A stretch of 64,000 nucleotides of DNA from Streptomyces humicola (GTDB lineage: Bacteria > Actinomycetota > Actinomycetes > Streptomycetales > Streptomycetaceae), in assembly GCF_024436035.1 (NCBI RefSeq), contig NZ_JANFNG010000020.1, forward strand, positions 1 through 64,000, given 5' to 3'. How positions within the stretch are numbered: the stretch's first letter is position 1; the number at the start of each line of letters is the position of its first letter. The position numbers and the translations under genes are program-made. The notes under the pieces are model-generated. The model saw only the letters and a list, made by a program, of their open reading frames with translations. It made no database searches and had not been told where the DNA came from. Of this stretch, positions 27,644 to 44,400 are shown piece by piece.

Positions 27644-28897
27644 ATGGATACGAAGAGTGACCGGATCGGCAGTTCCCGGACCGACAGCAAGCAGGCCGAC
27701 AGCAAGCAGGCCGGCAGGAAGCAAGCGGACAACCGGACCGACGCGGCACCGGACTGGGATGCGGCTGCCGCATCGTTCGACGACGAGGCGGATCACGGCC
27801 TGCGCATCCCCCAGGTCCGTACGGCATGGGCGTCACGGCTGCGCGCATGGCTGCCGGATCCGCCGTCCGACGTACTCGATCTCGGGTGCGGTACGGGAAG
27901 CCTCACGCTGCTGGCGGCCGAACTGGGGTATCGGGTCACCGGCGTCGACCGTTCGCCGCGGATGGCCGAACGGGCCGCGTCGAAGCTTGCCGCGAGCGGG
28001 GGCAGTGCGTGGGCGCGTGTGCTGATCGGGGACGCGGCCGAACCACCCGTCGGCGACGGGCGGTTCGACGTGGTGCTGGTCCGGCACGTGCTGTGGGCGC
28101 TGCCGGATCCGCGGGCGGCGCTGCGGCGCTGGGTGCGGTTGCTGCGGCCCGGCGGCAGACTCGTGCTGGTCGAGGGACGCTGGGGTGCGGCAGAGCCCGT
28201 CGCCTCCCGCGCCGGCATCCCCGCCGAGGCCCTCGCAGAGCTGGCCGCGCCACTGGCATCGCGTACGTACGTCGAGCAGCTCGGTCACGACCAGGCGTTG
28301 TGGGGCCGGGAGGTGAACGATGAGCGCTATGTCGCGATCGTCCATCCGGAGCCGGTTCGGCGGCGCCACAGCGAGATCGTCGATGTCCATCTGATCCTGC
28401 GGCAGGACGACCGGATACTTCTCGCCCGGCGCGCCAACACCGGCTATGCCGACGGCCTGTTGCATGCGCCGAGCGGGCGTGTCGAGGATGGCGAGGACGT
28501 GCGGGAGGCGCTGATACGCGAGGCCCGGGAGGAGATCGGAGTCGTCATCGACCCCGGCGACGTACGGGCCGCGCTGGTGATGCAGCACCGTGCGCCGGAC
28601 GGGGATCCGCGCACCGGTTGGTTCTTCGAAGTCCGCAGTTGGAAGGGCGAGGCGGTCAATCGCGAACCCGACAAATGCTCCGAGCTCGGCTGGTTCCGGC
28701 TCGACGCGCTGCCCGACGACATGGTGGCGTACTGCAGGGCGGGCATCGACGCCTACCGCTCGGGCCGGCGCTTCGTCCTGCACTGGCACCGTCCGGGCGA
28801 CGCGATCGCATACGACCCGCAGGGTCCCAGCCGCGCTGTGGGCCTGGAGCACAATGAGTGGCACAATCCGTCGCACCCCGCGGGAGGCCGCACGTGA
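27644..28897 (+). CDS. Fusion of a class I SAM methyltransferase and a NUDIX hydrolase
   Basis: A 417-residue two-domain cytosolic protein. After a charged N-terminus with a DSKQA repeat, residues about 60-215 are a methyltransferase (VLDLGCGTGSLTLLAAELG as motif I, GDAAEPPVGDGRFDVVLVRH). From about 240 the chain is a NUDIX domain with a complete box, G(R)5E form: GRVEDGEDVREALIREAREE followed by IGV. The fusion suggests one pathway in which a product is methylated and a nucleoside diphosphate derivative is cleaned up, but no substrate can be named. The next gene starts within its stop codon (GTGA overlap). Confidence 0.83.
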   Translation: MDTKSDRIGSSRTDSKQADSKQAGRKQADNRTDAAPDWDAAAASFDDEADHGLRIPQVRTAWASRLRAWLPDPPSDVLDLGCGTGSLTLLAAELGYRVTGVDRSPRMAERAASKLAASGGSAWARVLIGDAAEPPVGDGRFDVVLVRHVLWALPDPRAALRRWVRLLRPGGRLVLVEGRWGAAEPVASRAGIPAEALAELAAPLASRTYVEQLGHDQALWGREVNDERYVAIVHPEPVRRRHSEIVDVHLILRQDDRILLARRANTGYADGLLHAPSGRVEDGEDVREALIREAREEIGVVIDPGDVRAALVMQHRAPDGDPRTGWFFEVRSWKGEAVNREPDKCSELGWFRLDALPDDMVAYCRAGIDAYRSGRRFVLHWHRPGDAIAYDPQGPSRAVGLEHNEWHNPSHPAGGRT

Positions 28898-29286: not shown

Positions 29287-30699
29287 TCATTGCCAGCGGG
29301 GCTCGTCCGTGCCGGGGCGGCCGGGCGGGCGTGACCAGTCGGACGGGCCGCCGTCGATGCGGACCGGAGGGAGGGCATGGCGGAGGCGGCCGAGCGCGGA
29401 GTCGGTCTCGGTGAGATGGAGGTGGGGATCGTATGGATCCAGAGGGCCGATGCGTGGTTCGGGCCGGATGCGGTCGACGAGCCAAGCGGCGGTTGCGGCC
29501 AGGCTGAACCGCAGCACCCGGCCACCGCCTGCCGTGTGCCGCTCGGCCAGGGCACGCAGCACCGCGGCCGCGATGAGATAGCCCGTGCCGTGGTCCAGCG
29601 CCTGGGCGGGAAGGGCGCCGGGCCAGCCGTCCGGTGCCGCCTCGACCGCCGCGATGCCGCAGGCCGCCTGTACCAGGCTGTCGAAGCCTCGGCGCGCGGC
29701 CCACGGTCCGTCGCCGCCCCACGCGCACAGTTGAGCGACGATCAGGTCGGGCCGCTGCTCCAGCAGGACACCGGCCGACAGGCCGTACCGGTCCAGGGCG
29801 CCGGGCCGGTAGCCCGTCACGACGACGTCAGCCGTGACGAGCAGCTCCTCGAAGCGGGAGCGGTCCGCCCGCACGTCCAGGTCGAGCAGACAGGACCGCT
29901 TGCCGAATCCGGTGTCGGCGTGCGCGTCCGCGCTCTCCGGCAGCTGTGGTGAATCGACGCGCAGCACATCCGCGCCGAGCAGCGCCAGCGTCCGGGTGGC
30001 AACCGGCCCGGCGATCACCCGCGTCAGATCGAGCACCCGGACGCCGCGAGCAGGCAGCAGCACGCCGCCGTCGAGCGGGCCGAGCCGCCGTACCGGGGCG
30101 GCGCCCCCAGCCGCCCTCTCGACGCCGATGAGAGGCCCGGCGGCCGAGGCCCGGCCGGGTTCCGATGCGGCCCACTCCTGCGGCGTGCGCACAGCGACCG
30201 CGAGCCCGCCCTCCGCGTAGACCTGCTCCTGCACGTGTTCCGCCGCCTCGTCCCGGATCACGGCGGCGAGATGGTCGGCGAGCACCTTGTCCTCGTCGCC
30301 GTCGGGGATGCCGAGGGCGGCCAGCAACCGGGCACGGTGATGCGGGTAGTTGGCGTGCGTACGCACCCATCCGTCGGCCGCGCGCCAGAAACCGGAGAGC
30401 GGAGCGAACGTCGCCCCGGGCCGGCCGCCGATCGTCAGATGCCGTTCGCTGGCGAACGCCGCGGCAACCGCCCCGTCGTCCACCCGCACCGCCGGCGGGT
30501 CGCCGCCCGAGCGCACCGCCGCCAGCTCCGCGGCGGCGAGCGAGCACGCGGTGACAGTCGCCCGCGCCAGCTCGATCACCGGCAGCCGAGCCGTCAGCAC
30601 ACCACCCGGCCCGCCGGACGCCACCCGTTCCAGCGCCTGAGGGGCGCCTCCGACAGCCGCCCACGCCTCTTGCGTCGCGCCCTTGATCCGACTCGTCAT
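29287..30699 (-). CDS. CaiB/BaiF (family III) CoA transferase with an N-terminal extension
   Basis: A 470-residue protein. The canonical CoA-transferase start, VRVLDLTRVIAGPVATRTLALLGADVLRVD, appears only at about residue 228. GFDSLVQAACG carries the catalytic Asp that forms the anhydride intermediate. The first about 210 residues look like a partial, degenerate second CaiB-like module (GGRPGATFAPLSGFWRAADGWV), so the chain may be a fused or duplicated form. The substrate acid is unknown, and neighbours give no pathway. Convergent with the GntR gene. Confidence 0.8.
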   Translation of the reverse strand: MTSRIKGATQEAWAAVGGAPQALERVASGGPGGVLTARLPVIELARATVTACSLAAAELAAVRSGGDPPAVRVDDGAVAAAFASERHLTIGGRPGATFAPLSGFWRAADGWVRTHANYPHHRARLLAALGIPDGDEDKVLADHLAAVIRDEAAEHVQEQVYAEGGLAVAVRTPQEWAASEPGRASAAGPLIGVERAAGGAAPVRRLGPLDGGVLLPARGVRVLDLTRVIAGPVATRTLALLGADVLRVDSPQLPESADAHADTGFGKRSCLLDLDVRADRSRFEELLVTADVVVTGYRPGALDRYGLSAGVLLEQRPDLIVAQLCAWGGDGPWAARRGFDSLVQAACGIAAVEAAPDGWPGALPAQALDHGTGYLIAAAVLRALAERHTAGGGRVLRFSLAATAAWLVDRIRPEPRIGPLDPYDPHLHLTETDSALGRLRHALPPVRIDGGPSDWSRPPGRPGTDEPRWQ

Positions 30700-30754: not shown

Positions 30755-32077
30755 GTGAGCCGCCGCATCGTCCTGCTGGCCGCCGTCGGCGTGACCGGCC
30801 TCGGGCTTCTGGTCGCCCTGTGCGGCGCTCCGCAGCCCCGCACGACCGGCAGACAGCCGACCGCGCAGCTCGGCTGGGGGTTCACCCACACCCAGTACAG
30901 TGCCGACCAGGGCAGCGCGGCCGACCGGAACACCGCCCTCGCCACCCTCTCCGCCCAGCCCCTCCCGCAGGACCAGGCCATCATGGGCTGGGGCACGGAC
31001 AACCCTGAACCCGCGGCCGGCCGCTACGACTTCACCACCCTCGACAGCCGCATCGCCCTGATCCGCCGCACGGGCGGCACACCGGTGATCACCCTGTGCT
31101 GTGCCCCCGACTGGATGAAGGGCGGTCGTCCCGGCACCACCGACTGGTCGACGCTGGAGACCGCGCCCACTCCCGGCCACTACGCCGACTTCGCCGCGCT
31201 CGCAGCCACCGTCGCGCGTCGCTACCCCTTCGTGCGCCACTTCATCGTCTGGAACGAGTTCAAGGGATTCTGGAGTGACACCGCGGGCCGCTGGGACTAC
31301 GAGGGCTACACCCGCCTGTACAACCTCGTCTATCGCGCCCTGAAGCACGTCGACCCGCAGATCATGGTGGGCGGCCCCTACCTCGACATGGACAGCCTCG
31401 CGCCCGGTGACGACTCCAACGCCTCAGCCGTCGGCGGCCCTTGGGGCAGCCTCGACCAGCGCACCGTCGATGCTCTGGACTACTGGCTGCGCAACAAGGC
31501 AGGCGCCGACTTCCTGGTGGTCGACGGCTCCAGCACGGGCAGCGACAACAGGCTCTCCCCTGACGCGTTCACCGCGACCACGAAGTTCTCCGCCGTCAGC
31601 CGGTGGCTGCGCCGGATCAGCGGCCTGCCGGTGTGGTGGGCCGAGTGGTACGTCGAACCCGAAGGCGTCCAATGGCCCGACGACGAACTCCTCGCCGTCC
31701 AGGCGGCCGCCATGATGGAGATCGCCAAGGGCGGCTCGTCCGCCGCCTTCTACTGGAACCCCGAGACCGAGAGCGGCAGTTGTCCCGGCTGCCTGTGGCG
31801 CAGCACGGCAGCGGGCGCCCCGGGCGGAGGCACCGGGCTGCCGATGCTTCAGCTGCTGCAGCGCTTCGCCTCGGCCTTCCCGCCCGGTACTCCGCTGCGC
31901 GCCGTCACCGTCGACACCCCGGCCGTGCGTGTGCTCGGCGACGCGCGAGCCGTCCTCGCGGTCAACACCACCGCCCGGACGGTGCGCGCCCGGGTCGACG
32001 GTCACCGCGTCGACCTGGGGCCGTACGCCGTCGTGTGGACGACATCGATGCCGTTGATGACGCCGACGACACCCTGA
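30755..32077 (+). CDS. Secreted glycoside hydrolase, GH39-like (clan GH-A)
   Basis: A 440-residue exported beta-glycosidase-like enzyme. The N-terminal segment RRIVLLAAVGVTGLGLLVALC acts as signal or anchor, and Cys23 does not sit in a standard lipobox. The TIM-barrel shows HFIVWNEFKGFW with Glu168 as probable acid/base, and LPVWWAEWYVEPEG with Glu297 as probable nucleophile. GH39 members include xylosidases, iduronidases and PslG, which trims an exopolysaccharide. It sits beside the predicted polysaccharide assembly genes, converging with the flippase fusion only 6 bp away, so a role in cutting that polymer is plausible but inferred. GTG 30755 is chosen as the start. Confidence 0.78.
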   Translation: MSRRIVLLAAVGVTGLGLLVALCGAPQPRTTGRQPTAQLGWGFTHTQYSADQGSAADRNTALATLSAQPLPQDQAIMGWGTDNPEPAAGRYDFTTLDSRIALIRRTGGTPVITLCCAPDWMKGGRPGTTDWSTLETAPTPGHYADFAALAATVARRYPFVRHFIVWNEFKGFWSDTAGRWDYEGYTRLYNLVYRALKHVDPQIMVGGPYLDMDSLAPGDDSNASAVGGPWGSLDQRTVDALDYWLRNKAGADFLVVDGSSTGSDNRLSPDAFTATTKFSAVSRWLRRISGLPVWWAEWYVEPEGVQWPDDELLAVQAAAMMEIAKGGSSAAFYWNPETESGSCPGCLWRSTAAGAPGGGTGLPMLQLLQRFASAFPPGTPLRAVTVDTPAVRVLGDARAVLAVNTTARTVRARVDGHRVDLGPYAVVWTTSMPLMTPTTP

Positions 32078-32083
32078 GCCGGT

Positions 32084-35000
32084 TCAGCTCAGCGTCACAA
32101 AGCGGTCGACGACGGAGATGAGGACCACCACGAGCAGCGGCACCGCGGCGATGAGCGACAGCCGCATGCCGCGCCCGCGCCGCTGCGGTGCCACCAGCAC
32201 CCGCGCCAGCTCGCGCGCCCCCAGCAGGACGATCAGCGCCAGGGCGGCGATCACCCCCGCGACCGTCCACGGCGTCCACGTGATCACCGGACCGGCCTCG
32301 CCGGTCACCGGCCGCGGCACCCGGCCCGCCGGCGGCGAGGAAAGCTGGTACACGGTGGCATCGGCATCCGACATCGCTACCTTCAGCTGCCCGTTCCCGG
32401 TCAGTGCGGCGCCGAACCGCCCCGGCCAGTCGGACGGATAGCCGCCGTCCAGCTCGAGCGACTCCGTCAGGCCGCTGCTGACGATCAGGTAGGAGTTGGG
32501 CCCGGCGCTGCGCAGATCGTCCACCAGTACCCCGACCCGCGTCGGATCGTGCGGTGCGAGCACCGGCACATAGTCGACCTTCTCCATATCGCGGGCCATC
32601 CACGGCAGGTTCGGCGTCACGTCGGTCGACGGATCCTTGCTCGGCCACAGCAGCCGGGCCGACGGCGAGTCGTGGTCGTAGACGAAGTCCATCGCCGCGA
32701 CCTCTCCCGTCCGCACCCGTTCGAACGGCTCGTTGCCCCAACGCGCCACCAGGAAACCGCCCATGAGGACGAGCCCGGCGAGCAGCGCGGCGAGCGGCCC
32801 GCGCCACGGACGGCCGGGGCGCGGCGTGCTACGGGGGAAGAAGGCCAGCGCGGCAAGCACGCTGGCCCCTGGCAACGCGAAGAGGAAGACTCGCAGCGCC
32901 ATTTCGCCGCCGTACGACTGCATGCCGAAACCGAGGAACGGAACGAGCAGCAGGATCAGCATCGCCCGGTCGCTGTAGCCGGTCCGTCGTCTGCGCAGCC
33001 AGCCGTAGGCCGCGAGCGCCAGCACCCCTGCGGCGAGCCCCACCCGTGCGTACAGCACCAGCTTGTGCGTGCTGCTGCCACCCTGGATACGGCCCGAGAC
33101 GCTGGAGGTGACGTTTGCGCCGAGCGAGCCGAAGCTGCCGAACAGATCGCCCCAGTGGCCCGACCAGTACGGCTCGGCGAGATAGGCGACCCAGCAGATC
33201 ACCATCACCCCGCACAGCAACGGAAGACCCCGCAGGTCCACGCGGCGCCAGACGACGAGGGCGGCCACCACCCCCGTCATCACAAAAGGGGTGAGCTGAT
33301 GGCTGACGACCGAGGCCGCAAAGAGCGCGATCACGAGGACGAGCAGCACCGCCCGTTCCCGCGGCTGCGCACGATGCGCCTGCGCCTCACCCGCAATCGG
33401 CCCCGTACCCTCACCCGGCGTGCCGAACCACACCAACAGCACGGCCACGAACATCAGATAGAAGAAGTAGTTGACCGACTGCGGTGAGAAGTAGTCCTGA
33501 CCCACCCAGCCGCACAGCGCGAACAGCCATGCCGCGCACCACTTGGTGCGCCACCCGGCCCGCACCGCCCGCAACAGCAGCATCATCGGCGCCAGATACA
33601 GCAGTTCGACGGCGAGCGGCCACCAGCGCAGCACCTGAGTCAGATCGCTGATCCCGCAGGCCTTGGTGACGAGCGCGACAGCCGCGAAGAATCCCGGCCA
33701 GGAGAACCGGGCATCCAGATACGGCCGTGCGGTGCCGGTCCGGTCGATGTACTCGATGAACCCGGCGTGCTGCCAGGCGGTCGCGAACCGCGGCTGGGCC
33801 TCGAGCAGCGCAGGCACGCCGTGCAGTGAGACGACCGTGGCCAGCAGGACGGTGAGCAGCAGCACCGTGCGCGGGGTGCGCAGCCACAGCCCCCAGCAGA
33901 AGGCCACGACCAACAGGGCCGAGCCGAGCAGCGTCAGCGGCGGCAGGACGGATATCAGGCCGAGCCCGTTCATCCGGTTGAGCGAGGCGTCGTTCATCCC
34001 CCGCAGCGGCAGCCAGTACAGGGCGAGCGCGACGACCAGCGTCACCCAGCTCCCCGCCCCGGGCGCCCGCCCTCGCCATGTCCTGCGCACTCGAGCCCAC
34101 ATCCGCGTCCGTGACGATTCCCGTATCTTCCGTACCGGCCGCGCCCTGAGCACCTGCGCAAGCCCGAAGCAGGCGACCACCGCGATCACGCTCTGGCTCG
34201 CCAGCTCCGCAACGCCCGCTCCCACGATGCCCAGCGGATGCAGCAGCGCCATCGTCGACCCCAGCACCAGCACGCACAACAGCCCCTGCAGCACGGCGAT
34301 CCTGGAGGTGCGGCTCTGCGCGCGCAGCACCCCGAAGTACGCCTCGAACAACACCCGCGTCAGCGACGCCAGCGCCATGAGGCGCAGCAGCGGTGCGGCC
34401 TCGGCAGCGTACGCGGGACCGAAGACATGCAGCACCGGCGAGGCGAAGACGGCCAGGAACATACAGATCGGGATCATGATCCGGGCCATCCGGCCCAGCG
34501 CCGCACGGCAGTTCTCCGCGATCCGCGAGGGATCGTGGGCGCCCTCGACGGTCAGCGATGCGCCCATGTTGATCGCCAGCAGGTCGACCGTGCTGCCGAT
34601 CGTCGACGTGACGTAGAAGTACGCGTTGTCCTGCGGGCTGATCCGGGAGGCGACCAGCACCGGCACGAGATAGACGACGGCGAGTGCGAACAGCGAGCCG
34701 GTGCAGTCACCGGCCAGGAACCGCCGGACCTCACGCCCCGTAGGCGGCACCGCGCCGGCCCGCGTGGCCTCGATGTGCCGCGGGATGAGCCGCCGGAAGA
34801 CCAGCCAGCCCAGCGGCAGCACGGACAGGGCGATCGCCGCGACCCACGAGACGAACACCCCCGTCGCCGGGACGAGCGCGGCGAGGACGACCAGAAGCAC
34901 CAGCTTCCCCGTGGAGAAGACGGTGTTCCCGACCGGCACCCACACCGCGCTGCGCAGCCCCGTCAACACCCCGTCCTGCAAGGTGAGGACCGACCAGGCG

Positions 35001-35623
35001 ATCACCGAGCCGATGAACGCGAGCCCGGGCAGAAGCCCGTGCAGGAAGTGGTACGACGGTCCCCACAGGCCGAGCGTGAGCAGAAAGACCAGTGCGGCGG
35101 CCGTCACCACTGCGGCGCTCGCCAGGTACGTGCGCACGACGAGCCTGGCCGTGTGCTTCCCCGCCACGGGGATGAAGCGTGCCAGCGCCCCCGTGAGCGT
35201 CACCGCGGCGATCCCGGCGAGGAACTTCATCGCCGCGATCGCCGCGGAACCACGGCCGACCGCAGCGTCCGGGTAGTACCGCGCTGCAACCAGCCAGTAG
35301 CCGAGGCCCAGCACCGCCGACACCCCGGTGTTGAGCATCAGCGCATACGCATTGCGGAACAGCGGGTCGCGCGCGCCCCGGCCGCGCGGCGGCCGGACCG
35401 GCGGTGCTTCGTTCGCTTCTCCGCCCTCCCCCTGATCCGCGGGGGGACCTCCGCCCAGGCTCCGCGGACGGCCTGCGGTGCCGGAGGCATGCCTCTCGAC
35501 AGGAGCCTCGGCCGGCCTCCCCCACCTCCGCGGGGGGACGCCCTCCGCCTGCTGGCGTGCGTCGCTCAATGGCGTCTCCTCCGGCTCCTGAGCCGGCTGC
35601 TGGGCGGTGGTCGTCTCAGACAC
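32084..35623 (-). CDS. Fusion of a polysaccharide flippase (Wzx-like) and a large membrane glycosyltransferase/polymerase-like domain
   Basis: A 1179-residue membrane protein. Residues 1-85 are a disordered Pro/Arg/Glu cytoplasmic tail. About 88-515 form a MATE/MVF-type flippase (FRNAYALMLNTGVSAVLGLGYW, LLPGLAFIGSV, ISPQDNAYFYVTSTIG). About 540-1060 hold about twelve further helices of a glycosyltransferase- or O-antigen-ligase-like unit (QPRFATAWQHAGFIEYIDRTG, YFSPQSVNYFFYLMFVAVL, VVSHQLTPFVMTGVVA, GGEMALRVFLFALPG). An extracytoplasmic domain and a last helix follow. It likely moves lipid-linked saccharides outward and processes them there. It is the last gene of the run and overlaps the deacetylase by 8 bp. 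Confidence 0.78.
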   Translation of the reverse strand: MSETTTAQQPAQEPEETPLSDARQQAEGVPPRRWGRPAEAPVERHASGTAGRPRSLGGGPPADQGEGGEANEAPPVRPPRGRGARDPLFRNAYALMLNTGVSAVLGLGYWLVAARYYPDAAVGRGSAAIAAMKFLAGIAAVTLTGALARFIPVAGKHTARLVVRTYLASAAVVTAAALVFLLTLGLWGPSYHFLHGLLPGLAFIGSVIAWSVLTLQDGVLTGLRSAVWVPVGNTVFSTGKLVLLVVLAALVPATGVFVSWVAAIALSVLPLGWLVFRRLIPRHIEATRAGAVPPTGREVRRFLAGDCTGSLFALAVVYLVPVLVASRISPQDNAYFYVTSTIGSTVDLLAINMGASLTVEGAHDPSRIAENCRAALGRMARIMIPICMFLAVFASPVLHVFGPAYAAEAAPLLRLMALASLTRVLFEAYFGVLRAQSRTSRIAVLQGLLCVLVLGSTMALLHPLGIVGAGVAELASQSVIAVVACFGLAQVLRARPVRKIRESSRTRMWARVRRTWRGRAPGAGSWVTLVVALALYWLPLRGMNDASLNRMNGLGLISVLPPLTLLGSALLVVAFCWGLWLRTPRTVLLLTVLLATVVSLHGVPALLEAQPRFATAWQHAGFIEYIDRTGTARPYLDARFSWPGFFAAVALVTKACGISDLTQVLRWWPLAVELLYLAPMMLLLRAVRAGWRTKWCAAWLFALCGWVGQDYFSPQSVNYFFYLMFVAVLLVWFGTPGEGTGPIAGEAQAHRAQPRERAVLLVLVIALFAASVVSHQLTPFVMTGVVAALVVWRRVDLRGLPLLCGVMVICWVAYLAEPYWSGHWGDLFGSFGSLGANVTSSVSGRIQGGSSTHKLVLYARVGLAAGVLALAAYGWLRRRRTGYSDRAMLILLLVPFLGFGMQSYGGEMALRVFLFALPGASVLAALAFFPRSTPRPGRPWRGPLAALLAGLVLMGGFLVARWGNEPFERVRTGEVAAMDFVYDHDSPSARLLWPSKDPSTDVTPNLPWMARDMEKVDYVPVLAPHDPTRVGVLVDDLRSAGPNSYLIVSSGLTESLELDGGYPSDWPGRFGAALTGNGQLKVAMSDADATVYQLSSPPAGRVPRPVTGEAGPVITWTPWTVAGVIAALALIVLLGARELARVLVAPQRRGRGMRLSLIAAVPLLVVVLISVVDRFVTLS

Positions 35624-36425
35624 TGGCCTCGCGTACCTTCCGCACTGCGCGGCGCGTTCGCCGGATGATCGCGTAACTGCGGGTCAGCGCCCGGTCGCTG
35701 GCGAAGTGGAATCCAAGACGCCGACCCTCCACCAGCCGCTCGAACTCCTCGATCCCGGTGGACCGCCGTACCGTCACCCGCCGCAGTGCGTACGGCCCCT
35801 GCGTCGGGTGGGCCATGCCATTGCCCACCGCGAGCCCGACTCCGTAGCCGGCGGCGCGCACGAAACGCCGTACCCGGCGGCTCGAATATCCGTACGGGTA
35901 GGCGAACGAGCCCGGAGCCGTCCCCAGCTCCTCGTGCAGGATCTCCTTGCAGCGCACCACCTCGAACCACAGGTGTTCGTCGGGGAGCTGGTCCAGCTGG
36001 GGATGGCTGTGGCTGTGCGCTCCGATCTCCAGTCCTGCGGCGGCCAGTTCACCCACCTGCGCCCAGTCGAGCATGGTGTCCGGTGCGCCGGGGGTCAGGT
36101 CGGCGGCGGGCCGCCCGCGCAGCCAGCCGGTGGAGACGAACAGCGTCGCCACGAATCCGTGGCCCTTGAGCGCGGCGAGGGCATGGCGGTGCACCCCCTC
36201 GTAGCCGTCGTCGAACGTGATCAGCACGGGACGCGGCGGCAGCGGCCGCCGGTCCCGCCAGGCCTCGGCGAGCCGCCCCGCGGTCACCGGGGTGAACCCG
36301 CCCGCGGCGAGAAGCTCCATCTGCTGGGCGAACGCCACGGGTGCCACCGACAGCCGTCGCGCCGCCCGGGACGGGACGTCCGCCACGGCGTGATACATCA
36401 GCACCGGCACCGGCGAACCGCTCAT
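35616..36425 (-). CDS. Polysaccharide deacetylase (NodB/CE4 family)
   Basis: A 269-residue metal-dependent deacetylase that removes acetyl (or formyl) groups from amino sugars or wall glycans. Motif 1 is TFDDGYEG with Asp72 and the metal-binding Asp73. Motif 2 is HSHSHPQL with His137 and His141. Motif 3 is SFAYPYGYSS. No signal peptide is evident, so it may act on cytoplasmic or lipid-linked precursors, unless exported by another route. It overlaps both neighbours: the flippase fusion by 8 bp, and the GT2 gene upstream by 4 bp (ATGA). Confidence 0.88.
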   Translation of the reverse strand: MSGSPVPVLMYHAVADVPSRAARRLSVAPVAFAQQMELLAAGGFTPVTAGRLAEAWRDRRPLPPRPVLITFDDGYEGVHRHALAALKGHGFVATLFVSTGWLRGRPAADLTPGAPDTMLDWAQVGELAAAGLEIGAHSHSHPQLDQLPDEHLWFEVVRCKEILHEELGTAPGSFAYPYGYSSRRVRRFVRAAGYGVGLAVGNGMAHPTQGPYALRRVTVRRSTGIEEFERLVEGRRLGFHFASDRALTRSYAIIRRTRRAVRKVREASV

Positions 36426-37393
36426 GCGACCGCTCCCCCCGTCCCCCCACGGCCCCCGCGCGCCCGCAGACTGCCGAGGGCGTACCCCGCGCCGGCCGTC
36501 GCCACGCCGGCCACGATGGCCCCCGCACGGGCCGCGCCTCCTGCGCGCCCCAGCAATGCGTCACGCGCTCCTCGCAGCGCGCCCACCGGCAGCACGCGCG
36601 TGGTGTAACGGCGCTCGGAGGCGAGCCCCGCCCCCACGCCCACACGACGGGTGACCAGCGCCTTCGACAGGCCCTCCGCCCAGCAGCGGGCGCGGAAGTA
36701 CGAGAAGCTCTCCCGCGCCCGCGGCACCCGGTGGTGGATCACGGCGCGGTCGTCGATGAGCACCACCGCGTCCGGCAGCGCCCGCTGCAGCCGGATGCAC
36801 AGCTCGGTCTCCTCGCAGCCCAGCGGCCGCCGGTCGCCGTCACGCCCGATGCCGGTGGCGAAGCCGCCCGCCGCGTCGAACGCCGTGCGCCGGAAGGACG
36901 CGTTGCCACCCAGCACATTGCGCACCTGCACCCGGCCCGGCGGCAGTCCCAGATAGCTGCAGCCGACCACCCAGTCGAACTCGCGCGGGAACCACACGGG
37001 CCGGCGGCCCGACGACCAGACGGGCACCGTCCGTCCGCCGACCGCCATCACCCGCGGCTCCTCGTACGCCGCCGCGAAGTGCCGCAGCCAGTCGCGCTCG
37101 GCCACCGCGTCGTCGTCGAGGAACGCGATCACCGAGCCGGTGGCGGCGGCGATGCCGGTGTTGCGGCCGGCCGACAGGCCGCGCGGACCGGCGTTGGGCA
37201 GGACGACGACCGACGGATCGTCCTCGTAGTGTGCGCAAAGGCGGCCCAGCAAAACGGGGTTGTGGTCCACCACGAGCAGCATCTCGTGCGCGGGCAGGCT
37301 CTGCGTGGCCACCGAGGCCACCGAGGCGAGGATGTCGTCCCAGCGGTCCTCGGTGTACACGCAGATCACCACGGAGAGGGTCTCCGTGCTCAA
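36422..37393 (-). CDS. Family 2 glycosyltransferase
   Basis: A 323-residue inverting GT-A enzyme. It opens with TETLSVVICVYTEDRWDDI, the usual GT2 nucleotide-binding strand. The LDDDA acid triad lies at residues 93-95. GGNASFRRTAFDAAGGF and a CEETELCIRLQ acceptor-side helix follow. The C-terminus has Ala/Gly-rich hydrophobic stretches that may touch the membrane. TTG 37393, with GGAGGG upstream and overlapping the previous stop as TTGA, is the best start. It would add sugar to a lipid-linked polysaccharide precursor. The sugar is unknown. Confidence 0.87.
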   Translation of the reverse strand: MSTETLSVVICVYTEDRWDDILASVASVATQSLPAHEMLLVVDHNPVLLGRLCAHYEDDPSVVVLPNAGPRGLSAGRNTGIAAATGSVIAFLDDDAVAERDWLRHFAAAYEEPRVMAVGGRTVPVWSSGRRPVWFPREFDWVVGCSYLGLPPGRVQVRNVLGGNASFRRTAFDAAGGFATGIGRDGDRRPLGCEETELCIRLQRALPDAVVLIDDRAVIHHRVPRARESFSYFRARCWAEGLSKALVTRRVGVGAGLASERRYTTRVLPVGALRGARDALLGRAGGAARAGAIVAGVATAGAGYALGSLRARGGRGGTGGAVA

Positions 37394-38235
37394 GAGCCCT
37401 CCCCCAGACCCACACCGCCCGCTGCCGTGAGCACGGCGGGCCGCCGTCTGCGACGTCTGCCGCCCCGCTCCCGCACGATCACCTTCAGCACCCGCAGACC
37501 GTCGCGGACCGCTCGCAGGTTGCTCGCGCCGTGGATGCGCAGATGTTCGTGGCTGGGGATCTCCTGGACCCGCAGCCCGGCCTTGACCACCCGTATGTTC
37601 ATCAGGGTCTCCACTTCGAATCCGGCGCAGTCCAGGGCGATGTGGTCCAGGCAGTGGCGCCAGAAGGCGTTGTAGCCGTAGCACAGATCGGTGTACCGGG
37701 CGCCGAACTTGGCATTGACCAGGGCACACAGCACCCGGTTGCCGAGTCTTCGGATCAGCGTCATGTCGTCGGTGCCGCCGCCGTTGGCGAACCGCGAGCC
37801 TTTGGCGAAATCGGCCCCTCCCACGAGCGCCGAGACGTACGAGACGATTTCCCTGCCGTCGGCGGACCCGTCCGCGTCCACCATCACGATGATCTCTCCG
37901 GTGCATGCGGCGAAGCCGCTGATCAGTGCGTCTCCTTTGCCTCTGCCGAACTGGTCGACGACGGTGACCGACGGCCACAGTTCACGGGCGACCTTCACGG
38001 TGTCATCGGTGGAATGCCCGTCCACCAGAATGACTTCATGTATCCAGGGCGGGAGTGTTGCGAAAACGTGCGGGAGATTTTCCGCCTCGTTCATCGCGGG
38101 TATCACGACACTGACGGGCGGTGCAATTGCCAGATGCGAAGAAACCGGCCGGAAGGCCGGCCCGGCGACGGAGCCGGCTAATGTCGCTCTTAAAGGCGGC
38201 TGGTCCGGCGCGGCTGGTTGCGCGTAGGAAGTCAC
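37390..38235 (-). CDS. DPM1-type family 2 glycosyltransferase (polyprenyl-phosphate sugar synthase-like)
   Basis: A 281-residue soluble GT2 related to dolichyl-phosphate mannosyltransferase, which loads a sugar onto polyprenyl phosphate for use outside the membrane. Evidence: PVSVVIPAMNEAENLP at about 40-55, the DADGSADG metal motif near 120-127, RFANGGGTDDMTLIRRLGNRV and a LCYGYNAFWR segment typical of DPM1-like proteins. There is no C-terminal membrane domain. GTG 38235 is preceded by GAGGGA and is preferred over a long upstream extension without codon bias. First gene of the overlapped four-gene run. Confidence 0.85.
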   Translation of the reverse strand: MTSYAQPAAPDQPPLRATLAGSVAGPAFRPVSSHLAIAPPVSVVIPAMNEAENLPHVFATLPPWIHEVILVDGHSTDDTVKVARELWPSVTVVDQFGRGKGDALISGFAACTGEIIVMVDADGSADGREIVSYVSALVGGADFAKGSRFANGGGTDDMTLIRRLGNRVLCALVNAKFGARYTDLCYGYNAFWRHCLDHIALDCAGFEVETLMNIRVVKAGLRVQEIPSHEHLRIHGASNLRAVRDGLRVLKVIVRERGGRRRRRRPAVLTAAGGVGLGEGS

Positions 38236-38713
38236 GATTCCAATTCCCTCTCGTCCGGGGGATCGTTCACGCGGGACGGTCCTGAGGTATGTCCGGTTCG
38301 AAAGGGGGGTCTCACCACGCCCAGAGAATGCCCCCAACTGGCATGCGGGCATGATGAGTTGGCATAGGTGACAGGCCGCGCGGCGCGCGGCTCGGCACAT
38401 ACGCGGTGTCCGAGCACGGCACCCCCCTACCGCGCCCCGCACCGGAACCCATCGCGGCCTGCTCAGCCCTCCCCTGGGACCGCTTTTCATGATGGGGCGA
38501 TGCGGGTGGAAGTACGACGGTATTGATAGTCGGCACTCTATGGCAAGACCTGCACCGAGGATTACCCTTTGGCGGAATTGCCGTCATGATGTCGCTTTGA
38601 TCTTGTTGTATCGACAGATCATGTGCGATGCCGCAATTTTTCTGCCATGACCACAGACACATGAGCCGCGCGCGAGGTTGTACGAACGGAAGTGCGATAC
38701 AGGCCAGCGGTGT
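38236..38713. other. Intergenic region holding the promoter of the polysaccharide run
   Basis: About 480 bp with an AT-rich core (about 38500-38650), notably poorer in GC than the flanks. It contains an imperfect inverted repeat bounded by CCAACT (38335) and AGTTGG (to about 38363). No convincing small gene was found. Transcription towards the glycosyltransferase run should start here. Confidence 0.45.
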
Positions 38714-39808
38714 TCACCCGCGGGAGCGCAGCCGCCCCAGCCGCTTGAGAAGCCAGTCGGCCGGATCGCGCAGCTCCGGGCGGCCGACCACGGTGTTGCG
38801 CAGCGCCCGGACGGGCGCCCGCCGGGTCCGGTGCAGGGCGGCGACCGGGTGCGGACGCGTCACCCAGCCTTCGCCGACGGTCAGATCGCGTGTCTTCAGC
38901 GACTCCTTGTACGGCATCGCACCCCGCCCGAGATCGAGATAGGCGGTGCCGTCCAGCGCGGCCGCCTCGGCCATCCGCAGGCACAGCACCAGACCGGGGG
39001 AGTACTTCGCGTACCCGGTGTCGTAGGCCGGGAACCAACAGGCCAGGACGTGCGGCGAGTGCAGCCCGAAGTGCGCGGCGACCGGCAGCCCGCCCGCGTA
39101 CAGCACCGAGAGCCGCCCGGCGAAGTGGTCCTCGCGCGAGTGGAAGAGATGCTCGACGAGCCCGACGATCCACGGGCGCGCAAACCGGTCGCTGCGCCCC
39201 GTCCGCCGGTACTGCGCCGACTTCCAGGCCATCAGGGTACGCAGCACCGCCGGGTCCCGCTCGTCGTGCACATAACGCAGCTCTCCCGCATCGCGCGCAA
39301 GGCGGCGCTCCTTGGCGAGCGTGGTGCGCGTGAACTTCGGTGCGTGGCTGCGCAGATGGCGCAGATACGCCTCGTACCCCAGCTCGATGTCGATCACCGG
39401 CGAGGCGTAGCAGCCGCTCACTCCGGACTCGAACGGTTTCTGGCCCTCCACCAGGTGGTCGAACTCCCAGATCGCAAGCCCGCAGGCGCGCAGCAGCTCC
39501 CGGGCGTCCCACTGGAAACCCGGCCGGTGGACGAGCCCCTGGCAGTCCGAGAGCCCGAGCCCGACCGCCCGTCCCACCCCCGTTGCCGTGCGCTCGAAGG
39601 CGAAGAATCCGGCCGGCTCGCCGTCCTCACGGATCACCGCGACGCGCACCCCGCGCCGGAACCGGCCCACGGCCAGGGCGAATTCGAGTGACAGAAACGG
39701 ATTGGCGAGGCCCGGGAAGCCGGAGCGCCAGGCCCGGGACTGCATGCGGGCCCACGCCGCCCGGTCCGCACCGCTCAGTTCCCCGGGCCGGTGGAGCGTG
39801 ATGTCCAC
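38714..39808 (-). CDS. GNAT-fold acyltransferase, BioF2/CelD-like (FemAB-related)
   Basis: A 364-residue protein of the peptidoglycan-bridge/BioF2-like acetyltransferase class. The core is in the second half: LRTLMAWKSAQYRRTGR, FAGRLSVLYAGGLPVAAHFGLH, and AYDTGYAKYSPGLVLCLRMAEAAALDG, then DLGRGAMPYKESLKTRD. This Lys-x-x-(Tyr/Phe) pattern is typical. Such proteins N-acylate sugars or peptides during surface polymer synthesis (CelD in cellulose clusters). GTG 39808 is the start, two bases after the previous stop, so it forms an operon with the small membrane protein upstream. Its function in the polysaccharide locus is inferred by position. Confidence 0.8.
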   Translation of the reverse strand: MDITLHRPGELSGADRAAWARMQSRAWRSGFPGLANPFLSLEFALAVGRFRRGVRVAVIREDGEPAGFFAFERTATGVGRAVGLGLSDCQGLVHRPGFQWDARELLRACGLAIWEFDHLVEGQKPFESGVSGCYASPVIDIELGYEAYLRHLRSHAPKFTRTTLAKERRLARDAGELRYVHDERDPAVLRTLMAWKSAQYRRTGRSDRFARPWIVGLVEHLFHSREDHFAGRLSVLYAGGLPVAAHFGLHSPHVLACWFPAYDTGYAKYSPGLVLCLRMAEAAALDGTAYLDLGRGAMPYKESLKTRDLTVGEGWVTRPHPVAALHRTRRAPVRALRNTVVGRPELRDPADWLLKRLGRLRSRG

Positions 39809-39810
39809 GG

Positions 39811-40233
39811 CTAGGGTGCCCTCTTTCCCGGTGCCGTCGGCCGGCGGTAGGCGCGCCGCACCAGCGGCAGCAGGAAGAGTGCGATGCTCACCACGGCCAC
39901 CGCGGCGACGCCGCCGCGTATCGACCACAGATGCAGCATCAGCATCACCTGCGCGACGATCAGGTCGATCACGACCGAGCCCGTCACGGCCACGACGATC
40001 CTGCTCAGCGGGTCCAGGCCGCGCAGTACCGAGGCGAGCGCCGCGCCCGGAGCGACGACCAGGAAGAAGAAGGTGAACGGTGCGCGCAACGGCGAGCCGA
40101 TGTCCGCCAGGGCGAGCACGGCACCGACCCCGCCGGTCCCGAACGCGGCTCCCGCGAGAAGCGGCAGCGATTCCCTGGCGACCGACTGCCTGACGGATGG
40201 CCTTGTGACGGATTCCTTGGTGATGGGATGCAT
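39811..40233 (-). CDS. Small multi-pass membrane protein of the polysaccharide locus, unknown function
   Basis: Four hydrophobic segments in about 140 residues (LPLLAGAAFGTGGVGAVLALA, PFTFFFLVVAPGAALASVL, IVVAVTGSVVIDLIVAQVML, GGVAAVAVVSIALFLLP) and a basic C-terminus. I recognise no family. ATG 40233 follows GAGGGGGG. The frame stays open upstream to ATG 40347 without a ribosome site, and a TTGACG element sits in that upstream part, so the shorter form was chosen. It is coupled to the BioF2-like gene. Confidence 0.65.
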   Translation of the reverse strand: MHPITKESVTRPSVRQSVARESLPLLAGAAFGTGGVGAVLALADIGSPLRAPFTFFFLVVAPGAALASVLRGLDPLSRIVVAVTGSVVIDLIVAQVMLMLHLWSIRGGVAAVAVVSIALFLLPLVRRAYRRPTAPGKRAP

Positions 40234-40753: not shown

Positions 40754-41944
40754 TTACACCAGCACGAACTGCCCCTCCGGCCCTTCTTCGTGATGGTCGA
40801 GCACGGAGGCCGGGCGCCGCACGGCATCCGGCACCGGCAGGATCCCCGCCCGCCGAAGATCGTCCGTGCCGATGCAAGGGCCCGCGTCCAGGAGCCGGCC
40901 CAGCTCCCGCTGTTCGCCGCGCAGGCCGGCGAGCAGCGCGAGGACCGTGACCAGTTCGAGCAGCTCCGACGTCCACTCCTGCGGCCAGGCGCGTACTCCG
41001 ATCGCCGCAAGCGTTCCGGCGGGCGCTGTGGCGGTGCGCGAGGCGAACCAGCTCTCCAGCACGCCGACCCCGCCCACCCGGAACTCCCACACCGCCTTCG
41101 GCACGGGGGCGATCCGGCCCTCCCCGACGAGAAGCGCCCGCTCCTCGGCGTCGTACCGCAGTCCTGCTGGGCACGCCGGCAGCGGTGCACGGACGTACGG
41201 CCGTTGCCCGCCGGGGAGCCGCGGCCGCTTCCCGGAACCCTCTCCCCGCAGCTCGACCCACCGCATCCGCCGCCCGACGGCGACCCCCATGTCCCACAGC
41301 TCGGGACGGGTGGTCAGCGGCACGACGTGTCCGCCGAACCCGTCCGCGCCGGGGTGCGCCGTCGCCGTGATCCAGGCGAGCACGTCGTCGGCGCCGACCT
41401 CGCGCCCCAGAAGCCCTGCGAGAAGCCCGGTCAGCCCGGGTGCCAGATTGGGCTCGCGCCCACCGGGGCGCCGGTACAGCGGCCGGATCCGCCCCGCACG
41501 CCCGGCCGGTGACCGCCCGTCCGGCACCAGCGTGCTGAGCACCAGCAGCTCGTCCTGTTCGACGACGAAAACCTGACGCGCGTCCGCAACCCGCCACATT
41601 TCGGGCCGTGCTGCATCGATCAGCCGTTGATCGGGTATCAGCCACTGCTGGTCGAACGCGCCGTGCAGCACCCGCACCGGCTCGGGGCACGGGCCGCTCT
41701 CCCGGGCCATCCTGCCCGTCGGCGCGGCATGTCCCGGCAGTTGACCGACGGCGCTGTGCAGCGTACGGGAGCGCGTGGGGCAGAAGAGCACGCCCCGCTG
41801 CTCCTCCTCCGCAACACCGACCAGTGCGTTCCAACGGGCTCGCAGCGAGCCGGCATCCGGAGCCATCACCCAGCCGCGGCCGAGCCGTAGCGGAGCGGCG
41901 GACCAGGGCATCAGATCATCGAGCAGGGGCACGTCGTCGCTCAC
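40754..41944 (-). CDS. Stand-alone recognition-domain-like relative of type ISP restriction/modification enzymes
   Basis: A 396-residue protein. The first half carries FCPTRSRTLHSAVGQLPG, the second YDAEERALLVGEGRIAPVP and VWEFRVGGVGVLESWF. These blocks match the C-terminal target-recognition part of type ISP (LlaBIII/LlaGI-type) enzymes, in which nuclease, helicase and methyltransferase normally come first. None of those is encoded in this gene or next to it: no DPPY-type methyltransferase motif and no Walker A box are present. It may be a DNA-binding relic or a protein with a new role. Assignment rests on remembered family motifs. Confidence 0.65.
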   Translation of the reverse strand: MSDDVPLLDDLMPWSAAPLRLGRGWVMAPDAGSLRARWNALVGVAEEEQRGVLFCPTRSRTLHSAVGQLPGHAAPTGRMARESGPCPEPVRVLHGAFDQQWLIPDQRLIDAARPEMWRVADARQVFVVEQDELLVLSTLVPDGRSPAGRAGRIRPLYRRPGGREPNLAPGLTGLLAGLLGREVGADDVLAWITATAHPGADGFGGHVVPLTTRPELWDMGVAVGRRMRWVELRGEGSGKRPRLPGGQRPYVRAPLPACPAGLRYDAEERALLVGEGRIAPVPKAVWEFRVGGVGVLESWFASRTATAPAGTLAAIGVRAWPQEWTSELLELVTVLALLAGLRGEQRELGRLLDAGPCIGTDDLRRAGILPVPDAVRRPASVLDHHEEGPEGQFVLV

Positions 41945-43022: not shown

Positions 43023-44366
43023 TCAGGACGTGAAGTGGCGCTCCAGACCCTGCCATACCGCGTCGTACCCCGGCTGGCGGTGGTCCGCGCCGAGCGCCTG
43101 CGCCGTCGGCACCACAGGCCAGCGCGTTTCGAACATGAAGGCCAGGCCGTCGTCGACCTTGTGCGGCTTCAGCTCGGCCGAGCTCGCCGCCTCGACGGTC
43201 TCACGGTCGGGCCCGTGTGCCGACATCATGTTGTGCAGCGACGCCCCGCCCGGCACGAACCCCTCCGCCTTCGCGTCGTACGCCCCCTCCACCAGGCCCA
43301 TGAACTCGCTCATCACATTCCGGTGGAAGTACGGAGGACGGAAGGTGTCCTCGCCGACCAGCCAGCGCGGGGCGAAGACCACGAAGTCCGCATTGGCGAG
43401 CCCCGGGGTGTCGGACGGCGAGGTGAGCACTGTGAAGATGGACGGGTCGGGGTGGTCGTAGCTGATCGAACCGAGCACGTTGAAGCGATTCAGGTTGTAG
43501 ACGTACGGCACGTGGTTGCCGTGCCACGCGACGACGTCGAGGGGGGAGTGGCTGTACTCGGCCGCCCACAGGTTGCCGCCGAACTTGTTCACCACCTCGA
43601 CCGGTTCGTCCCGGTCCTCGAACCAGGCGACGGGCGCGAGGAAGTCCCGTGCGTTCGCCAGGCCGTTGGCCCCGATCGGGCCGAGCTCGGGGAGGCGGAA
43701 CGGCTGCCCGTAGTTCTCGCAGACATAACCGCGCGCCTCGCCGTCGAGCAGCTCCACCCGGAAGCGGATCCCGCGCGGGATCAGCACGACGTGCCCCGGC
43801 TCGGCGCTCAGCAGCCCCAGCTCGGTGCGGAGCAGCAGCCCGCCGCGTTCGGGCACGATCAGCAGTTCGCCGTCGGCGTCCGAGAAGACCCGGTCGGTCA
43901 TCGAACGGTTCGCCGCATACCAGTGGATGCCGATCCCGGTCCGCTGCAGCGCGTTGCCGTTGCCGCCCACCGTCACCAGGCCGTCGACGAAGTCGGTCGG
44001 CGCCTGGGGGAGCGGCAGCGGGTTCCAGCGCAGCCGGTTGGGGTCGGGTTCGACCTCGGTGAAGGGTGCCGTGCGCAGCTGCCTGTTGCCGATCCGGTGG
44101 AACGCCGGATGGGCCGCCGAAGGCCGGATCCGGTACAGCCAGCTGCGCTGGTTGTGGTGGCGCGGCTCGGTGAAGGCCGTGCCGGACAGCTGCTCGGCGT
44201 AGAGGCCGAGCGGTGCGCGCTGTGGTGAGTTGCGGCCCACCGGCAGGGCGCCGGTCACCGCCTCGCTGACGTGCTCGTTGCCGAAGCCGGGGGAGTACGT
44301 GAGACCGGCCGCGATCTTGCGGGCCGCCTCCGAGCCGCCCGCGACCCCGTCGTGCGTTGTGCCCAT
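43023..44366 (-). CDS. hmgA: Homogentisate 1,2-dioxygenase
   Basis: A 447-residue Fe(II) ring-cleaving dioxygenase of phenylalanine/tyrosine degradation, opening homogentisate to maleylacetoacetate. Highly characteristic blocks: [16 protein letters not shown] at the N-terminus, the metal ligands in [15 protein letters not shown] (His, Glu), and [14 protein letters not shown] (His). Length is standard. ATG 44366 with GGGAG upstream is preferred over GTG 44387. First gene of an operon with the GntR regulator. Maleylacetoacetate isomerase and fumarylacetoacetase genes are not present in the window. Confidence 0.95.
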
Positions 44367-44400
44367 CGCCTGCTCCCTCTCCCTCACCTAGTCGCCACTG

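Follow-up and report, generated by a model that had tools for sequence, protein, structure and literature searches.

A candidate glycan assembly and export locus with a conserved structured leader RNA in Streptomyces humicola

Gene content of the locus

Streptomyces humicola belongs to the Streptomycetaceae; among named organisms, it is most closely related to Streptantibioticus and to unplaced Streptomyces. We analyzed a stretch of 64,000 nucleotides (nt) from its assembly GCF_024436035.1 (contig NZ_JANFNG010000020.1, positions 1 to 64,000), hereafter the window. A preliminary description made from the letters alone had placed genes for assembly of a cell-surface polysaccharide at 30755-40233. 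Gene calling by codon bias (GC bias at third codon positions, GC3) and Pfam searches confirmed these genes in their places (Table 1). The locus encodes two glycosyltransferases (GTs) of family GT2, one AglJ- and DPM1-like and one AglG-like, a NodB-like deacetylase, a fusion of a flippase half with a GT-C-like half, a convergent GH39 hydrolase, an acyltransferase, and a small membrane protein.

The AglJ-like, AglG-like, NodB, and fusion genes overlap one another by 4 to 8 nt on the minus strand, which suggests translational coupling. Upstream of the AglJ-like gene, at a distance of 478 nt, the genes of the acyltransferase and the small membrane protein stand as a pair of their own. No phosphoglycosyl transferase (Bac_transf or Glycos_transf_4) was found among the cluster genes of the window or among the scanned, selected genes of related clusters.

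Table 1. Positions of the genes and leader features in the window
Feature	Position	Strand	Evidence and remarks
GH39 PslG-like glycoside hydrolase, N-terminal transmembrane (TM)/signal anchor	30755..32077	+	Pfam Glyco_hydro_39; convergent to operon
Fusion, 1179 residues, MOP-type flippase half and GT-C-like multi-TM half	32084..35623	-	Single open reading frame in near relatives
Putative flippase half, residues about 86-493	34145..35368	-	Weak Polysacc_synt
GT-C-like half, residues about 525-1120	32264..34051	-	Family without Pfam entry; hhalign
NodB/PgaB-like polysaccharide deacetylase, 269 residues	35616..36425	-	Polysacc_deac_1; best PDB match 5bu6
AglG-like GT2, 323 residues, TTG start	36422..37393	-	Glycos_transf_2; best NCBIfam match AglG
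AglJ/DPM1-like GT2, 281 residues, probable polyprenyl-monophosphate sugar synthase	37390..38235	-	Glycos_transf_2; 5mlz; NCBIfam AglJ
Conserved structured 5' leader, candidate RNA	38236..38493	-	Alignment, covariance model; no Rfam match
ACCCCCC strand, can pair with AGGGGGGT (38421-38428)	38304..38310	-	Overlaps the hairpin predicted to sequester the Shine-Dalgarno sequence
Hairpin P5/P6 covering Shine-Dalgarno sequence GAGAGGGA (38245-38252)	38245..38306	-	Pairing in 27 sequences
Promoter-like block TTGCCA-18-TACCGT, upstream of leader	38501..38548	-	Conserved in 8-locus alignment
Acetyltransf_6 (BioF2/CelD/FemAB-type) acyltransferase, 364 residues	38714..39808	-	Pfam 136.5 bits
Small multi-TM protein, 140 residues, no Pfam family	39811..40233	-	Homologs in Nonomuraea and Pseudonocardia loci

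Predicted enzymes and membrane proteins

The best PDB match of the AglJ-like GT2 was the dolichol-phosphate mannose synthase of P. furiosus (5mlz, E = 3.7e-17, residues 40-242), followed by ArnC. As in DPM1-type enzymes, its GT2 domain aligned with the solved synthase across the catalytic core. Since these enzymes are its nearest relatives, a polyprenyl-monophosphate sugar is its likely product. AglJ and AglG were the best NCBIfam matches of the two GT2s, with 135.6 bits against a cut-off of 325 and 210.4 bits against a cut-off of 440, respectively. These scores lie far under the equivalog cut-offs, and therefore neither GT2 should be named AglJ or AglG.

The NodB-like deacetylase scored 90.6 bits with Pfam Polysacc_deac_1 and matched BpsB/PgaB best in the PDB (5bu6, E = 1.8e-16). 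The TFDD and HxxxH motifs of CE4 enzymes were present, and D72, D73, H137, and H141 were invariant in 26 homologs. Because no signal peptide and no TM helix were found in it, the enzyme probably works in the cytoplasm, ahead of export. Its sequence closeness to PgaB/BpsB recalls poly-N-acetylglucosamine systems (PgaB/IcaB; Streptomyces MatAB, PMC5972031). Unlike those systems, the locus has no processive synthase, and its deacetylase has neither a signal peptide nor a C-terminal hydrolase domain.

A deacetylase is also paired with a GNAT-type acyltransferase in the Caulobacter holdfast system, where HfsH and HfsK are thought to act on exposed amines (PMC5362036, PMC8449245). In contrast to that system, the locus has no HfsE-type initiator; HfsK itself sits outside the hfs locus. 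The acyltransferase gene was absent from the locus in several relatives, including L064/L065, and we rejected it as an essential part for that reason. Thus, the gene set drawn in the preliminary description held for the core genes, which were conserved together, but the acyltransferase was not an obligatory member.

The fusion as a whole had no Pfam match, and it was searched across genomes as separate halves, not as the 1179-residue whole. The flippase half matched Polysacc_synt with an E value of 0.16 in the window, and a stand-alone homolog in locus L024 reached 28.9 bits against a cut-off of 28.2. Its profile found no PDB relative. We tentatively assign the N-terminal half as a flippase on this Pfam evidence, which is weak in the window and significant in the stand-alone homolog. 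The disordered-looking N-terminal tail at residues 17-80 (35383-35575, minus strand) resembled six other places in the same genome with 47-72% identity, and this likeness probably reflects low-complexity sequence. The fusion was one open reading frame (ORF) in near relatives and two separate genes in L069-L071 and L075. Other fusions were also seen: AglG with GT-C in a single frame (L022-L024), and flippase, AglG, and GT-C in a single frame of 1423 residues (L025).

The GT-C-like half contains the invariant motifs AWxH, W(P/A)GFF, GQDYFxPQ, HQLTP, and YGGE...R. Neither it nor the small membrane protein had a sequence relative in Pfam, NCBIfam, or the PDB. In hhalign comparisons, the PMT_2 profile gave 90.6%, with a reversed control at 59% over 25 columns, whereas the Wzy_C profile gave 0.7%. 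Wzy_C was found by Pfam neither in this half nor in any protein of the whole S. humicola genome. The C-terminal half thus leans toward GT-C/PMT_2 and away from Wzy, which is a lead rather than proof. For this half, called a membrane glycosyltransferase in the preliminary description, no Pfam family was found, and such a role is putative. Foldseek matches of its structural model (pLDDT, the predicted local distance difference test, 43.5) were discarded as meaningless.

These features set the locus beside Wzx/Wzy-dependent exopolysaccharide clusters (for example, Actinoplanes imp and wps-1; PMC13390465). Such clusters resemble it in their GT2s, in a MOP-type flippase and a membrane-embedded transferase (both putative in our locus), in modification by acyl or other groups, and in a glycoside hydrolase that lies inside the cluster or close to it. 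The locus differs from them in having no phosphoglycosyl transferase among its cluster genes, no Wzy_C or O-antigen-ligase protein, and no Wzz, and in having a DPM1-like initiator and a flippase-transferase fusion. The leaning toward PMT_2, with no Wzy found in the genome or by hhalign, would also agree with protein O- or N-glycosylation, in which the GT-C-like half would move a lipid-linked oligosaccharide to surface proteins, as AglB or PMT does, rather than polymerize it. Haloarchaeal N-glycosylation likewise pairs AglJ with AglG, the best curated matches of our two GT2s, and a monophosphate-type initiator and lipid carrier are likely here too. Unlike that pathway, the locus scores far under the cut-offs, has no AglB, and adds a deacetylase and a hydrolase. 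A dedicated hydrolase (GH39, GH16, or GH26) in the set suits a polymer better, and no target protein and no oligosaccharyltransferase family match were found by Pfam. We consider protein glycosylation quite unlikely.

The GH39 protein matched Glyco_hydro_39 with 31.3 bits (cut-off 26). Its two catalytic glutamates (WNE and AEW) aligned with those of GH39 enzymes and structures, each being at least 90% conserved, and it carries an N-terminal TM segment or membrane anchor. In a Foldseek search with a low-confidence model (predicted template modeling score 0.53), the PslG structures 9g17, 5bx9, and 4zn2 took ranks 1, 2, and 4, which bears out the PslG-like character given earlier to the converging hydrolase. 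PslG of Pseudomonas is membrane-located and required for normal Psl (PMC9075953); by this analogy, a processing role of the GH39 enzyme on the glycan product is reasonable. The two systems share a GH39 gene beside assembly genes, the two catalytic glutamates, and the membrane anchor. Unlike in Psl, the other Psl components are absent, the envelope is Gram-positive, and the hydrolase gene lies on the opposite strand.

The leader before the AglJ-like gene

Alignment of the gap before the AglJ-like gene showed long invariant blocks and led to a structured leader of about 250 nt, which the preliminary description had missed. The leader had no match in Rfam 15, either at the gathering cut-off or at E values up to 1. 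Of 150 genomes of the family, 27 each gave one full-length match to a covariance model, and the other 123 gave none. All 27 copies precede AglJ-AglG-NodB; the stretch from G029 ends within AglG, and its NodB is on a different contig. AglJ orthologs with at least 79% identity were present in 28 of the 150 genomes, namely the 27 leader genomes and G349, whose leader is a diverged copy without helix P3. None of the other 122 genomes had a model match, and the scan reported no copy in genomes with a distant AglJ only (at most 52% identity) or in G023 (69%).

Across the 27 aligned sequences, 94.6% of cells in the leader helices could pair, compared with at most 48.3% when partners were slid. Changes on both sides occurred at 8 pairs and made up 17 cells, compared with 6.0 after shuffling (0 of 500), counted per sequence and not per evolutionary event. 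The covariation was carried by P1, P4, and P6. For the P5/P6 hairpin, 97.2% and 94.6% of cells were paired, respectively, and inner P2 (CGCGG/CCGCG) was intact in 27 of 27. In L177, both the G-run and the C-run were changed with complementarity kept. Outer P2 as first drawn (GGTGCG/CGCGCC) was broken in several sequences and was dropped. RNAalifold joined CGG to CCG where P3 lies; this fold was also rejected, because the hand-drawn P3 (GCUCGG/CCGAGC) covaries.

The leader thus combines conserved helices, compensatory changes, and a 5' position, the features of a cis-regulatory structured RNA, and we regard it as a candidate new cis-regulatory RNA family. Several blocks are base-invariant, which is also consistent with protein binding to a DNA element such as an operator cluster. 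Against a DNA element stand the compensatory changes in P1, P4, and P6, the high pairing relative to slid controls, and the 3' hairpin that covers the Shine-Dalgarno (SD) sequence at a fixed spacing in 27 loci, and we judge it improbable. The promoter-like block upstream of the leader was not picked up by a sigma-70 consensus scan.

In the predicted structure of the RNA, the SD sequence GAGAGGGA had an unpaired probability of 0 at seven of eight bases, and keeping ACCCCCC out of pairing partly freed it in the folding model. The 3' hairpin would conceal the SD sequence and so gate translation of the first gene. The long-range pairing of the G-run with the C-run would remove three GC pairs from the hairpin and could open the SD sequence upon a signal. 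From this predicted layout, we infer that the leader may serve in the cell as a translational on/off switch for the core genes. A structured 5' leader ahead of polysaccharide genes is also known from Bacillus eps operons (EAR, the epsC motif; PMC2864571). Unlike EAR, our leader had no Rfam match (E up to 1), and its layout suggests SD sequestration, not antitermination.

Conservation and the proposed pathway

Strong orthologs of the GT-C-like half were found in 13 of 61 Streptomycetaceae genomes. The same 13 hold a strong GH39 ortholog, adjacent in all 13 (Fisher p = 1.5e-13, which ignores phylogeny). The glycan-assembly genes are therefore kept as a unit, the opposite of being scattered in relatives, which the preliminary description had named as the outcome that would speak against a common locus. 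Whole synteny was seen in four named relatives (two Streptantibioticus and two Streptomyces), two of which have no acyltransferase gene. The gene order was retained while the flanking genes differed between relatives. The conservation of the set excludes chance association.

At an E value of 1e-20, the GT-C family was present in 11 of 246 genomes sampled across the phylum. In inspected loci outside the family, AglG-like genes lay nearby in 6 of 7 and AglJ-like genes in 5 of 7. The full set, GH39 included, occurs in Nonomuraea gerenzanensis. One plasmid each of Pseudonocardia autotrophica and Deinococcus aetherius carries AglJ, AglG, GT-C, and flippase genes, to which the Pseudonocardia plasmid adds NodB and GH39. 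Homologs of the small membrane protein occur in the Nonomuraea and Pseudonocardia loci; the Deinococcus match was short and weak. DegT aminotransferases near related clusters suggest amino sugars. The hydrolase family varies between loci yet recurs as GH39, GH16, or GH26. Sister modules L072-L074, L076, L089, and L091 have an extra GT2 of about 430 residues; L074 and L091 also contain a GH16 gene, and ATP-grasp and FAD-oxidoreductase genes adjoin the module in L074 and L069.

The 13 locus-bearing genomes are spread patchily within genera. This patchiness, the retention of an own hydrolase, and a flippase of the large MOP type rather than the GtrA type do not suit a decoration system that would add a short side chain of amino sugar to a wall polymer already present (teichuronic acid, teichoic acid, or the CslA/GlxA glycan), with the GT-C-like half as the side-chain transferase. 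Such decoration does agree with the small number of glycosyltransferases, and a polyprenyl-monophosphate donor with a flippase and a GT-C enzyme is its classic layout (established knowledge; PMC13390465). We hold it to be unlikely.

Several neighboring genes were also noted. A 396-residue ORF (40754-41944, minus strand) between a GntR gene and the locus had no NCBIfam match and showed 55-67% identity in near relatives. The coenzyme A-transferase III gene at 29287-30699 (minus strand) matched half of its Pfam profile, beginning at residue 219, and is possibly a divergent two-domain form. The ORF at 27644-28897 (plus strand), by eye a fusion of an S-adenosylmethionine methyltransferase with NUDIX, adjoins the locus in near relatives too. 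Homogentisate dioxygenase (43023-44387) lies beside the locus, and fumarylacetoacetase (L195:3767-5077) lies beside a second locus in G067 described below. Both are tyrosine breakdown genes, and their placement may be chance.

We propose a dedicated assembly and export line for a partly de-N-acetylated glycan built on polyprenyl phosphate, with translation gated by the folded leader, and give this reading a probability of about two in three. The AglJ/DPM1-like GT2 would put the first sugar on polyprenyl monophosphate at the cytoplasmic face, and the AglG-like GT2 would attach the second. The cytoplasmic NodB-like enzyme would strip an N-acetyl group off the lipid-linked sugar. In loci that have it, the Acetyltransf_6 enzyme may acylate the product. 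The MOP-type half of the fusion would flip the lipid-linked unit, and the GT-C-like half would polymerize it on the outer side or pass it to an acceptor. The membrane-anchored PslG-like GH39 enzyme would trim or release the product. The gene set may suffice on its own for assembly. Polymer synthesis, side-chain decoration, and protein glycosylation are not separable by sequence; the assembly line described here, ending in polymerization or transfer to an acceptor, is the reading that we favor.

Several observations weigh against the proposed line. The cluster holds only two GTs, no polymer-length gene, and no anchoring gene, and the sugar specificity is not readable from the sequence. The GT-C assignment depends on the one profile comparison (90.6% against 59% for the reversed control over 25 columns), and AlphaFold modeling of this half with five sequences failed (pLDDT 43.5). 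In the leader, the P2, P5, and G-run/C-run (PK) pairs are nearly invariant, so that the PK and P5 pairs have no covariation of their own. With z = -1.87, its minimum free energy is no more than mildly low, and the predicted fold does not contain P5. In addition, nothing but the leader and the AglJ-AglG-NodB trio is left at the site in 7 of the 28 genomes. As these reduced loci show, the trio and the export genes are separable. In both reduced genomes that were checked (L195 in G067 and L196 in G063), a second locus lies elsewhere. It encodes a GT-C homolog, a GT2, and another NodB, together with a flippase of about 55% and an acyltransferase of about 57% identity; a DegT aminotransferase and a GH26 gene were Pfam-annotated in L195 only. 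Such split loci fit a shared function with its parts divided.

A further-reaching proposal is that the locus represents a separate class of glycan export, in which a polyprenyl-monophosphate oligosaccharide would be flipped and passed on, without leaving the fusion, to a polymerase or ligase of a new GT-C family, and a new riboswitch-like leader would read an envelope-precursor or second-messenger signal. We offer this as a tentative and rather doubtful extension.

The matrix glycans of Streptomyces tied to MatAB and CslA depend on other genes (MatAB: PMC5972031). No publication on this gene set or leader was found in the open-licence literature, and no named Streptomyces glycan for the set was found there, in agreement with the preliminary description. 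The proposed line would link a conserved membrane family labeled hypothetical protein by NCBI in Deinococcus and Pseudonocardia to glycan export in Actinomycetota and Deinococcota, and the leader is a candidate new class of regulatory RNA. The locus is a concrete candidate for an unassigned surface polymer in soil bacteria that produce antibiotics; the clumping and adhesion of these bacteria are important in fermentation.

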